63,216 bases of DNA from positions 3,040 through 66,255 of the forward strand of contig MFNE01000024.1 in NCBI GenBank assembly GCA_001783695.1. Direction: 5' to 3'. The notes under the pieces are model-generated. The model had not been told where the DNA came from and made no database searches. It worked only from the letters and a program-made list of their open reading frames with translations. Shown one piece after another: positions 3,795-36,811 of this stretch; the stretch's first letter is position 1, and each line of letters opens with the position of its first letter. A program made the position numbers and the translations under genes. Source of the stretch: Candidatus Lambdaproteobacteria bacterium RIFOXYD2_FULL_50_16 (GTDB lineage Bacteria; SAR324; XYD2-FULL-50-16).

Positions 3795-6674
3795 CTAGCT
3801 ACAGCCTTGGCTGCTGCCGCAGGTGATACAGACGTAGCAAGTGCCGGTTCGCAAGAAATCAATGCCGCCACACTCGCCACAAGGGGATAAGTGGTCGCTA
3901 GTTTTCTCGGATTCGATGGACTTGACTGCCTGCACCTTCACCGGTTGCGCGGTAACGATGTTGTTGATACTAGCCGTCGGATTGTCACCAGGTTTAACAT
4001 GTAAAAAATCGGTCCGCCCTAGATATTGAAAGCCTAAAACCCTAAAGATCGCATCGATCAAACTGGTGGCGTTTTTCAAATAGGGGTGACCCTCGACCCG
4101 TCCATGAGGCTCGAACTTAGTAAAGGCAAAGCGGTCCACTAACTTCTCTAAAGGCACCCCATGCTGGAGCGAGAAGGAGATGGAAATAGCAAACTGGTTC
4201 ATTAAAGCCCGCACGGTCGAACCCTCTTTGTAGCCTAGATCCACAAAAATTTCGCCTAGACTGCCATCTTCGTTTTCCCCAGAGCGCAAAAAGACCTTGG
4301 TCCCGGCAACCTTAAATTCCCAGGTCCGACCATTGCGGCAACCGGGAAGTTTTTTCGAGTGCCCCCAATCCAAGGCTTTCGCTTGGGTTTTTTCGCTCAA
4401 ACGCTCTTGGAGTTGGGCCAGTTCGGTTTTAAGGAAGTCGATGGTCTGTTGGGTTTGGGTGTCTTCTTTATCGGGACTGGTGGTCAGAGGCTGGCTGCCT
4501 TTGGAACCATCGCGATAAATGGCCACAGCCTTAAGCCCCAATTTCCAAGACTCAAGATAAACATCTTTGATCTCGTCCACCGTTGCCTCTTTGGGCATGT
4601 TGATGGTTTTGGAGATAGCGCCCGACAAAAAGGGCTGGGTAGCGGCCATCATCTTGATATGGCCCATCGGCGCAATTGAGCGACTGCCTGAACCTGAAGG
4701 CATGGCGCAGTCGAAGATCGATAAATGTTCGGCCTTAAGACCTGGCGCCCCTTCGATGGTGGTTTCCTTTTCGATGTAGTCAGTAATCGCCTTGATCTGG
4801 CTGGCCGAATAACCGAGTTTATTTAAAACCGCAGGAACCGACTGGTTCACCATGGGGATTACCCCGCCGCCAGCAAGCTTCTTCCACATCACCAAACTAT
4901 AAGCAGGCTCAACCCCCGTCGTGGCGCAGTCCATCAAGAGCCCGATGGTCCCAGTAGGGGCTAAAACCGACACTTGAGCGTTTCTAAAGCCAAAGCGGGC
5001 ACCCTTGTCTAAAACCCGGTCCCAAACGCCCACAGCGGCTTTGTGGAGTTCCATAATCACTTTATGCCCTTCGACAAAATATTCCTTTTTGTCTAGGTAG
5101 CTCCGGTGCTGAGCCATCACGTCCATCATCGAAGCCGCATTAACTGGGTGCCCTTCGAAGGGACCCATGGCACTGGCCATGTCAGCAGATAACTCGTAAG
5201 CCGAACCGGTCATCAGAGCGGTCACCAACCCAGCCAAGGCTCGACCTTCGTTAGAGTCATACGCATGCCCAGCCATCATCAAAAGGGTGCCCAGGTTGGC
5301 GTATCCCAAGCCCAACGGCCTAAAGTCATGGCTGTTTTTGGCGATTTTTTTGGTTGGGTAGCTGGAGAGATCAACTAAAATCTCTTGGGCCAACAAGAAG
5401 ACCTTACAGGCCTTGGTGAAGGCTTCTACGTTAAACTGACCGTCTTGGTAAAACTTGACCAAATTCAGGCTAGAGAGGTTGCAGGCCGAGTCGTCGATAA
5501 ACATAAACTCGCTGCAAGGATTCGAAGCCCGAATCGGCGCGGTCTGTGGGCAGGTGTGCCAGTCGTTGATGGTGGTTTCAAACTGGACGCCTGGATCGGC
5601 ACAACGCCAAGCGGCTTCACTGATCTTTTTAAAGAGGAAGCGAGCCTTGTGGGTCTCGTAAACCTCGCCGGTCACCCGGTTGATGGTTTGCCAGTCGCTG
5701 TCTTGCTCGACCGCTTCCATAAAGGCGTCTGAGAGCCGAATCGAGTTATTGGAGTTTTGCCCAGCTACGGTGGCGTAGGCCTCGCCGTTGAAGTCTGAAT
5801 CGTACCCGGCCTGGATTAGGGCCATGGCTTTTTCTTCTTCTTTAACTTTCCAGTCAATAAAGTTGAGCACCTCTGGATGGTCGATATCCAAGCAGCGCAT
5901 TACCGCCGCCCGCCTGGTGGTGCCGCCCGATTTAATCGCGCCGGCAGCCGCATCTAAAACCTTCAAGAAGGACAACAAGCCCGAACTCTGCCCGCCGCCT
6001 GATAGTTTCTCGTTGCCACCCCTAAGTTTGCTCATGTTCGAGCCGGTGCCGCTGCCGTATTTAAAGAGGCGGGCCTCGTTGCTGGCTAATTCAAAGATGC
6101 TGGCTAGATCGTCTTCAACACTTTGAATAAAGCAAGCACTGCCTTGAGGGCGCTCATATTGGTTGTGGATCTTTAGAAAATGATCCCCTTTATCCCATGC
6201 GTAGTTTTCGCCGTTGCCTTTGATGCCGTATTCGTGGTGAAGCCCCACGTTAAACCACACGGGGCTGTTAAAGGCCCCATATTGGTGGAGTAGTAGCCAC
6301 TTGAGGTCGTTTTCATAGTGGGTGGCGTCCGCCTGGGAGGCGAAGTAACCCTCGCTTAAACCCCTTTCGGTGATTGTATGAGCGACTCGGTGGATCAGTT
6401 GGGTAACCGAAAACTCGTGACCCCGATCATTAGGCACTCCAGCCTTGCGGAAATATTTGCTGGCCACGATGTCCGTGGCCAACTGACTCCAATCCTTGGG
6501 GATTTCCACGTCTTTCATCTCAAAGACGGTGCCCCCTTTGGCCGAAGAGATTTTAGAAAGCCTACGCTCCCACTCGACCGTAGCCCAAACGTTATGGACC
6601 GTTTCAGTCGGATGAAAAAAGTAAGGTTCGAAGTGAAGGCTCTTTTTTTCGGTTTCGATTCGTTGCTGATTCAT
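3795..6674 (-). CDS. nrdJ: Adenosylcobalamin-dependent (class II) ribonucleotide reductase
   Basis: Reduces ribonucleotides to deoxyribonucleotides with a B12-generated thiyl radical and needs no oxygen. The 959-residue protein has the ribonucleotide reductase barrel with the core motif NPCSEFMFIDDSACNLSSLN near residue 385. It has glycine-rich substrate-binding segments (APTGTIG, and MPSGSGSRS in the class II region). A Cys-rich tail (CGECGG...CYVCITCG) is typical of the long vitamin B12-dependent form and carries the redox cysteines. It is monocistronic, with a terminator after it and a 358-base leader before it. No nrdAB or nrdDG is in the window. No obvious cobalamin riboswitch was found upstream. 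Confidence 0.95.
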   Translation of the reverse strand: MNQQRIETEKKSLHFEPYFFHPTETVHNVWATVEWERRLSKISSAKGGTVFEMKDVEIPKDWSQLATDIVASKYFRKAGVPNDRGHEFSVTQLIHRVAHTITERGLSEGYFASQADATHYENDLKWLLLHQYGAFNSPVWFNVGLHHEYGIKGNGENYAWDKGDHFLKIHNQYERPQGSACFIQSVEDDLASIFELASNEARLFKYGSGTGSNMSKLRGGNEKLSGGGQSSGLLSFLKVLDAAAGAIKSGGTTRRAAVMRCLDIDHPEVLNFIDWKVKEEEKAMALIQAGYDSDFNGEAYATVAGQNSNNSIRLSDAFMEAVEQDSDWQTINRVTGEVYETHKARFLFKKISEAAWRCADPGVQFETTINDWHTCPQTAPIRASNPCSEFMFIDDSACNLSSLNLVKFYQDGQFNVEAFTKACKVFLLAQEILVDLSSYPTKKIAKNSHDFRPLGLGYANLGTLLMMAGHAYDSNEGRALAGLVTALMTGSAYELSADMASAMGPFEGHPVNAASMMDVMAQHRSYLDKKEYFVEGHKVIMELHKAAVGVWDRVLDKGARFGFRNAQVSVLAPTGTIGLLMDCATTGVEPAYSLVMWKKLAGGGVIPMVNQSVPAVLNKLGYSASQIKAITDYIEKETTIEGAPGLKAEHLSIFDCAMPSGSGSRSIAPMGHIKMMAATQPFLSGAISKTINMPKEATVDEIKDVYLESWKLGLKAVAIYRDGSKGSQPLTTSPDKEDTQTQQTIDFLKTELAQLQERLSEKTQAKALDWGHSKKLPGCRNGRTWEFKVAGTKVFLRSGENEDGSLGEIFVDLGYKEGSTVRALMNQFAISISFSLQHGVPLEKLVDRFAFTKFEPHGRVEGHPYLKNATSLIDAIFRVLGFQYLGRTDFLHVKPGDNPTASINNIVTAQPVKVQAVKSIESEKTSDHLSPCGECGGIDFLRTGTCYVCITCGSSQGCS

Positions 6675-24819: not shown

Positions 24820-24846
24820 TAAAGTTTTTATGCCAGAAACCGATAA
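24820..24846 (+). promoter_or_regulatory. Sigma-28 (FliA) promoter
   Basis: TAAAGTTT-N11-ACCGATAA matches the E. coli flagellar class III consensus TAAAGTTT-N11-GCCGATAA at 15 of 16 positions with the exact spacing. The downstream ATG is 33 bases past the -10 box. Confidence 0.85.
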
Positions 24847-24879
24847 GGAGCTAACTAGGATTGTTAACCGGAGTCTAAC

Positions 24880-25677
24880 ATGAAAAAACTCTCCGCCTCC
24901 TCCGCCTTTTTGTGGTGCTTGTTGGGGGTAATTGGGCTGGCCCTTTTGGCGTCGTTGCATTTCTTTTCTGAGATGAACGACAATTACGTGCTGATAGCAA
25001 GAGGGTATGATCCCTATCAGCAGGTCACTGATAACTATCGCTTCCACCGTAGCAAAAAGGGACTGATTTTTTCGGTCTCCTTTTTGATTTCGGCGACTAG
25101 TTTTTTGGTGATGGTGCTACTGCCCAACGAGGAAGCAAAACGAGTCAAGCCGGTCCGCAAGGCGGCCCCCGTACCCGAAGGTGTGACCCCGCCCAAGGCT
25201 CAATCTGAATCAACCATCTCAAGCCCAATGCAAGGCGGAGTGGATGATAAGGACGAGGACCTTGAAACTACGGCCCTACCTGAACCCAGATCGAGAAGCC
25301 GCGAGCGAGAATCAGTGATCGAAGCGATCGAGGAATTGGACTTAGAAGATGTGGAGTTCGAAGGCGAGGTCGATATTACCGAAGGAGAAGACGACGTGGT
25401 TTACGGCTCTGGCGAGATTACCGCTGCGGCGCTAATCGACTTCGTTCACAAATATCCAGATTCGTCGTTAAAGTTCCTCTTCCGCCGAAAACTGGACGGC
25501 AAGCCTTTAAGCGCCGAAGAAGAAGATATCTATGCCGCCTGGGAGGCTCGAAGCCTCACCCGGGGGAAAATCAAACGCTATATCTTGCAGTTGATGGATT
25601 GGGAAGAGATGCCCAAGGAACCTCTCTACGAGATTTGGAAAAAGATCAGAGACCATATCTTCGAAAACTACAGTTAA
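24880..25677 (+). CDS. Two-helix membrane protein with acidic cytoplasmic domain, probable motility-linked gene
   Basis: A 265-residue protein of unrecognised family. Helix 1 spans about residues 8-29 and helix 2 about 61-81, with a short loop outside (SEMNDNYVLIARGYDPYQQV) and a long cytoplasmic tail. The tail starts with a basic Pro/Val stretch, goes through a strongly acidic, likely disordered region (residues 145-180, EELDLEDVEFEGEVDITEGE) and ends in a compact helical domain (ALIDFVHKYPDSS... to the C-terminus). A near-perfect FliA promoter lies just upstream, so it should be made with late flagellar genes. It ends at a strong terminator. The function is not known. Confidence 0.8.
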   Translation: MKKLSASSAFLWCLLGVIGLALLASLHFFSEMNDNYVLIARGYDPYQQVTDNYRFHRSKKGLIFSVSFLISATSFLVMVLLPNEEAKRVKPVRKAAPVPEGVTPPKAQSESTISSPMQGGVDDKDEDLETTALPEPRSRSRERESVIEAIEELDLEDVEFEGEVDITEGEDDVVYGSGEITAAALIDFVHKYPDSSLKFLFRRKLDGKPLSAEEEDIYAAWEARSLTRGKIKRYILQLMDWEEMPKEPLYEIWKKIRDHIFENYS

Positions 25678-25706
25678 AAAAAAGCCGCCGTCGGGCGGTT
25701 TTTTTT
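25678..25706. terminator. Bidirectional rho-independent terminator
   Basis: A-run, stem GCCGCC/GGCGGT (one G-T wobble) with loop GTCG, then an 8-base T-run. It separates the convergent genes ending at 25677 and 25710. Confidence 0.9.
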
Positions 25707-36245: not shown

Positions 36246-36272
36246 TCAAGTTTTTTATTCCCCTGCCGATAA
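36246..36272 (+). promoter_or_regulatory. Sigma-28 (FliA) promoter
   Basis: TCAAGTTT-N11-GCCGATAA, 15 of 16 matches to the E. coli class III consensus with exact spacing. It reads into the two small coupled genes at 36351 and 36650; the ATG lies 78 bases past the -10 box. Confidence 0.85.
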
Positions 36273-36350
36273 GGAACTAGGCAAACAAAATACTCAAATA
36301 CCCATGGCGGTCTTCGGGCCGCTAGCCAACTTAAAAAAACAGGAGCGGTG

Positions 36351-36653
36351 ATGGAAAGGGATATCCAAAGAATCCGGGAAACCCTGGCGCAGATGATTCA
36401 GCTTAGCGTGGTTACCGAGCGAAGTTACCGGATGTCGGTCCGCGAACTAGGAGCGTTTTATCTAAACGGCACCAGCCGGTCTGAACAAGGGGAAGTGGAT
36501 TTACTTTGGGAATATGAAGACGGACGCCCGATTCGGGTGAATCGGGAAAACAGCGAGCTAGTTGTGGCCGAATACTTTGAACGTTTAGGTCTGGAATTGG
36601 TTTTACCTCCCACTCCAGATCCGATCCTACAAAAAACCTGGAGGTTGGCGTGA
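36351..36653 (+). CDS. Small protein of unknown function, FliA-promoted
   Basis: A 100-residue soluble acidic protein (MERDIQRIRETLAQMIQLSV at the N-terminus, DLLWEYEDGRPIRVNRENSE in the middle). Its family is not recognised. AGGAG at 36341-36345 favours the ATG at 36351 over the GTG just before. The helical start and beta-rich middle suggest a small compact fold. A FliA promoter is upstream and its stop overlaps the next small gene (GTGA), so both should be made during late flagellar assembly or for chemotaxis. It does not look like FlgM, FlgN or a Che protein. Confidence 0.75.
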   Translation: MERDIQRIRETLAQMIQLSVVTERSYRMSVRELGAFYLNGTSRSEQGEVDLLWEYEDGRPIRVNRENSELVVAEYFERLGLELVLPPTPDPILQKTWRLA

Positions 36654-36811
36654 AGATCGAAGATAAAAAGGCCAAACCTTTCGCCGAGCCTAATCGAGAC
36701 GAAATCGCCGAGGCGTTAAAGAAATTTTTGGCCAAGGGTGGGCGGATTCGCAGGGAAGAACCGCTGTGGATCGAAGAAGAGCGAGGGGCTGATTTTCAGC
36801 CTAAGAACTAA
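36650..36811 (+). CDS. Small basic/acidic protein with FLAKGGRI motif, SutA-like pattern
   Basis: A 53-residue protein begun by GTG that overlaps the preceding TGA. Sequence: a charged N-terminus, then AEALKKFLAKGGRIRREEPL, then an acidic tail. The pattern of helix, F-L-x-K/R-G-G-K/R-I and charged tail resembles the small RNA polymerase-binding protein SutA and similar short regulators, though similarity in so short a sequence proves little. Good codon use over the whole length, translational coupling and a terminator immediately after its stop support it as a real gene. Confidence 0.6.
   Translation: MKIEDKKAKPFAEPNRDEIAEALKKFLAKGGRIRREEPLWIEEERGADFQPKN

Follow-up and report, generated by a model that had tools for sequence, protein, structure and literature searches.

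The locus analysed lies within a 63,216-nucleotide stretch of the genome of Candidatus Lambdaproteobacteria bacterium RIFOXYD2_FULL_50_16 (G000; the whole stretch is called the window in the following), a member of the group that is also called SAR324. It holds a FliA-type promoter site, a likely ribosome-binding site, an open reading frame and an intrinsic terminator (Table 1). The gene located 3' of the frame converges on it and, given this and the terminator, the gene appears to form a single-gene unit. The neighbours in this genome and in G010 encode glycosyltransferase and flippase-like proteins, and in the loci that were read the gene was found outside the flagellar clusters. The open reading frame is real, because every one of the 11 genomes of the order has an ortholog and 49 of the 52 genomes of the class have a homolog; the ortholog of Candidatus Lambdaproteobacteria bacterium RIFOXYD2_FULL_56_26 is 63-65% identical. 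Wherever the two-helix protein is present, it is encoded by one copy per genome.

Table 1. Features of the locus, with window positions and the basis of each assignment
Feature	Position	Strand	Basis or remark
-35 element TAAAGTTT	24820..24827	+	8/8 to consensus; kept upstream of orthologs
-10 element ACCGATAA	24839..24846	+	7/8 to GCCGATAA; 11-nt spacer; kept upstream of orthologs
Likely ribosome-binding site GGAG	24870..24873	+	sequence; 6 nt before ATG
265-aa ORF, stop included	24880..25677	+	membrane hairpin of two TM helices, then a proline-rich/acidic linker and a helical C-terminal domain
TM helix 1, about residues 8-30	24901..24969	+	hydropathy; AlphaFold2 helix 6-33, low confidence
30-residue inter-TM loop, probably periplasmic	24970..25059	+	equal length in 22/22 aligned homologs; hydropathy
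TM helix 2, about residues 61-82	25060..25125	+	hydropathy; AlphaFold2 helix 50-80
Low-complexity linker, Pro-rich then acidic, residues 83-165	25126..25374	+	composition; poorly conserved; pLDDT <50
C-terminal conserved domain, residues 166-265, predicted helical	25375..25674	+	alignment; common to soluble paralogs
Intrinsic terminator, bidirectional	25687..25706	+	hairpin plus T-run

Hydropathy, composition and a low-confidence AlphaFold2 model agree on the architecture that the initial annotation had proposed, i.e. two membrane helices, an acidic segment (residues 120-172 hold 23 D/E vs 5 K/R) and a C-terminal helical domain. The alignment revealed a series of near-invariant residues within this domain (domain numbering): V9, G12, F24, P29, D30, S31, K34, F35, L36, L41, D42, W57, R60, M75 and W77. 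The structure predictions were poor: from three input sequences AlphaFold2 reached a pLDDT of 44 for the full protein and of 57 for the C-terminal domain, for which five helices were suggested with low confidence, and a Foldseek search of the models against the PDB gave no fold match. The domain is also found in proteins that have no evident TM segment and no evident signal peptide; a cytosolic location is therefore most likely and would orient the hairpin N-in/C-in. The family, unrecognised at the outset, is indeed without a match in Pfam, NCBIfam, PHROGs or the PDB: scans of the protein against the first three, profile searches against the PDB, and scans of 30 homologs against Pfam and NCBIfam returned low-complexity or non-significant matches only. 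This includes the MCPsignal, HAMP and CheW-type domains of chemoreceptors and coupling proteins (no significant match in Pfam or NCBIfam) and the known stator, motor and basal-body families (no match in Pfam, NCBIfam, PHROGs or the PDB). A match to 'Tube' (E 0.095) was rejected as weak, as was one to GltJ (4 members, best E 2e-4), which was attributed to the Pro-rich linkers.

The promoter site TAAAGTTT-N11-ACCGATAA (24820-24846) equals the FliA consensus TAAAGTTT-N11-GCCGATAA at 15 of 16 positions, has the exact spacing and is separated by 33 nt from the ATG at 24880, as had been claimed for it. The full pattern with at most one mismatch occurs twice in the window. The other near-perfect site (TCAAGTTT-N11-GCCGATAA, 36246-36272, forward strand) lies 3' of an MCP gene and some 75 nt ahead of two small unrecognised open reading frames (36348-36653 and 36650-36811). 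Across the 3.14-Mb genome, the pattern TNAAGTT-N13-CCGATAA has 7 matches vs 0 for the reversed-pattern control, and the full consensus at ≤2 mismatches has 18 vs 4.

The same genome encodes FliA (C30:68548-69219; TIGR02479, 245.7 bits vs a cut-off of 189.6) as well as FlgM, and the motif precedes fliD-fliS (two sites), flgM-flgN-flgK (two sites, 13-nt spacer) and fliM; the sites at fliD, flgM and fliM are internal positive controls. Sites in tandem, 70-135 bp apart, were seen upstream of fliD (L058:2134/2267), upstream of flgM (L133:784/856, 13-nt spacers) and close to a contig end (L130:3697/3790), and other sites precede a fabMG-like gene and a gene for a small outer-membrane beta-barrel (L059:3570, L060:4003). 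The flagellin genes that were recovered in full from this genome (C21, C26; L128, L129) are without a FliA-type site at ≤3 mismatches, and sigma-28 control therefore does not simply cover the filament genes here. Sigma-54 control of these flagellin genes was considered and rejected: convincing -24/-12 sites were not found.

To assess the conservation of the site, the 300 bp ahead of one two-TM ortholog per genome were compared with the E. coli consensus, scored at 15 positions and with two spacers; this covered the 43 genomes in which the N terminus could be read. At ≤3 mismatches out of 15, a FliA-type site precedes 36 of the 43 single-copy orthologs, representing 18 of 24 genera, and at ≤4 mismatches one precedes 41; five orthologs have a 4-mismatch site at best, and those of G001 and G039 have no recognisable site within 300 bp upstream. 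G001 was rejected as a clean negative control: FliA and flagellins are present, and its own flagellins are also without good sites. The control set comprised 239 upstream regions (250 bp each) of other genes at the same loci. Six of these contained a site at ≤3 mismatches, namely three copies of this family and three purposely fetched FliA-site genes; the remaining control genes contained none (0/~233, with 14 scoring 4). The difference between orthologs and controls (Fisher p ~1e-38) is uncorrected for phylogeny and is to be read as 'not chance' only. The site is positioned at -58 to -69 from the ATG within the family of the studied genome, at about -140 in genus g19 and at -188 in others, and the gene neighbourhood differs between SAR324 families. 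Since both distance and neighbours vary, the site itself was kept, rather than a recent common sequence, and this comparison shows a FliA-type site retained through descent. It is thus highly likely that the gene belongs to the FliA (sigma-28) regulon, and its transcription is predicted to depend on FliA.

A profile of the C-terminal domain matched in 48 of the 52 SAR324 genomes and did not match in any of the 331 outside genomes, a broad but not exhaustive sample, so that 'SAR324-restricted' applies to the genomes searched. Flagellin was found in all 52 SAR324 genomes and FliA, above the curated cut-off, in 50; the former count is in line with the reported occurrence of motility genes in all SAR324 genomes (PMC9031357) and implies that co-occurrence with flagella cannot discriminate inside the group. 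The two-helix protein is absent from six flagellate genomes of genus g24, which has many flagellins, and so is not shared by all flagellate SAR324 members. Four of these six genomes have the domain as a stand-alone copy, and in the same genus the N-terminal region and the C-terminal domain of the third paralog are separate nearby genes (L072:3931-4635 and 5296-5676), which suggests gene fission.

Within family f4 the domain is found on two further, soluble architectures. The gene for the first follows a flagellin gene on the same strand, at a distance of 3.9-5.4 kb, in eight genomes according to the hit tables (G021, G022, G023, G028, G036, G038, G039 and G040) and, by direct reading, in G042. 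The cluster in G040 has the order flagellin-mnmE-small ORF-flaG-paralog; fliE and genes for rod proteins are oriented towards it. The gene mnmE, encoding a tRNA modification GTPase, lies within the flagellin cluster of several f4 genomes (L069:560-5216; L064; L067; L075). The other soluble paralog has an unrelated N-terminal region and its flagellar neighbours are not consistent; a link of the third paralog to CheY, nearby in only two genomes, was judged weak. Directly upstream of the paralogs no FliA-type site was found.

The phylum-wide conservation of the promoter, the presence of the motif at fliD, flgM and fliM, and the occurrence of a paralog in flagellin clusters strongly support the initial view of a motility-related gene under FliA, and the protein is very probably part of the swimming machinery; it may, as was also suggested, be a motor or chemoreceptor-associated factor. 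Our preferred reading, held tentatively with a probability of roughly 0.45, is that of a membrane adaptor of the late flagellar stage, specific to SAR324. RNA polymerase with FliA would transcribe the single-gene unit from the promoter described, once the hook is complete and FlgM has left the cell through it, and the product would insert as a two-helix hairpin with both termini in the cytosol. The flexible proline-rich/acidic tether would then present the small helical domain for docking; its probable partner is a cytosolic component of the flagellum or of chemotaxis that the soluble paralogs would bind as well, and this component would be held at the membrane, close to the motor or pole, with a presumed effect on swimming. 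The presence and the conservation of the promoter, the domain architecture and the linkage of the soluble paralog to flagellin clusters argue for such an adaptor. Against it stand the poor structure models and the missing fold match, the absence from g24, the lack of a homolog of known function, the siteless flagellins of the same genome, the siteless orthologs of G001 and G039, and the five orthologs with only a 4-mismatch site. We would give even odds to the more general proposition that the phylum-specific docking domain, membrane-tethered under sigma-28 control or soluble beside flagellin, constitutes an undescribed accessory module of the flagellum or of chemotaxis.

Several other explanations have to be weighed. 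A coincidental FliA-like match ahead of a gene that has nothing to do with flagella might be argued from shuffled 63-kb windows, which contain on average 0.8 sites at ≤3 mismatches, and up to 3; the genome-wide excess over the reversed-pattern control speaks against this and the comparative result, orthologs against control genes, refutes it in practice, which makes a chance match most improbable. The gene could also be a member of the FliA regulon without a direct part in swimming, e.g. an envelope, adhesion or surface-glycan factor of motile cells, in agreement with its glycosyltransferase and flippase-like neighbours and with the other FliA-type sites ahead of the outer-membrane beta-barrel gene and fabMG. 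These neighbours, however, converge and are not co-transcribed, they are not kept in other SAR324 families, and the other homes of the C-terminal domain include flagellin clusters, so that we regard such a factor as quite improbable.

Closer to the flagellum itself, the domain might dock flagellin, a chaperone or export-gate parts, and the membrane form would bring these to the export gate as a helper of filament assembly. The soluble paralog is clustered with flagellin, and in G040 with flaG, and the genes for FliD, FliS and FlgN, all filament-stage proteins, come after sigma-28-like sites in the studied genome; yet neither an export signal nor a chaperone family match was found, the two-helix gene lies outside the flagellar clusters in the loci read, and genus g24 makes its many flagellins without it, which renders this role unlikely. 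We are similarly doubtful of a scaffold for positioning or number control, in which a membrane hairpin would mark the pole that bears the flagellum or limit assembly, by analogy with the layout of TipN and TipF. A two-TM anchor with a long disordered linker and a small C-terminal domain, present as a single copy per genome, would suit such a task, and hydropathy indicates the N-terminal TM hairpin of these proteins. However, FliA-dependent genes are normally expressed once the basal body is in place, a timing that suits a late function better; no sequence or fold similarity was found, and the C-terminal part of this protein of only 265 residues is a short, predicted helical domain that matched neither an EAL-like nor any other domain and is not a long coiled coil.

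Preferring the late-flagellar adaptor for its mechanism, we consider the finding itself to be a solid regulon assignment of an uncharacterised family that is SAR324-restricted among the genomes searched, rather than the demonstration of a new mechanism. SAR324 is a globally abundant and largely uncultured phylum (marine/subsurface) and, to our knowledge, its motility machinery is known only through homology to model bacteria. A single-copy gene that has stayed under a flagellar promoter in most of the phylum, and whose domain was absent from all other genomes searched, makes a concrete candidate for a flagellar part peculiar to this lineage, and the case illustrates that promoter conservation can place otherwise unannotatable genes in a regulon.

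Three known systems invite comparison. The polar/flagellar placement proteins TipN and TipF of Caulobacter are two-TM proteins whose N-terminal TM segments are followed by a cytosolic C-terminal part, a long coiled coil in TipN and an EAL-like domain in TipF. Their general layout is that of the present protein, which differs in carrying a 100-residue predicted helical domain instead, in its FliA-type promoter and in being without detectable similarity to any annotated family. The AmaP-type membrane anchor proteins (NF033218) likewise tether a cytosolic domain by a hairpin, but match only 1 of the 30 homologs (E=0.028) and differ in C-terminal domain and regulation. Finally, unlike the FliA class III genes (e.g. 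fliD, flgM and the chemotaxis genes), the gene encodes a product for which none of the known class III protein families gave a match and which is confined to SAR324 among the genomes searched, while its promoter consensus and spacing are identical to theirs.
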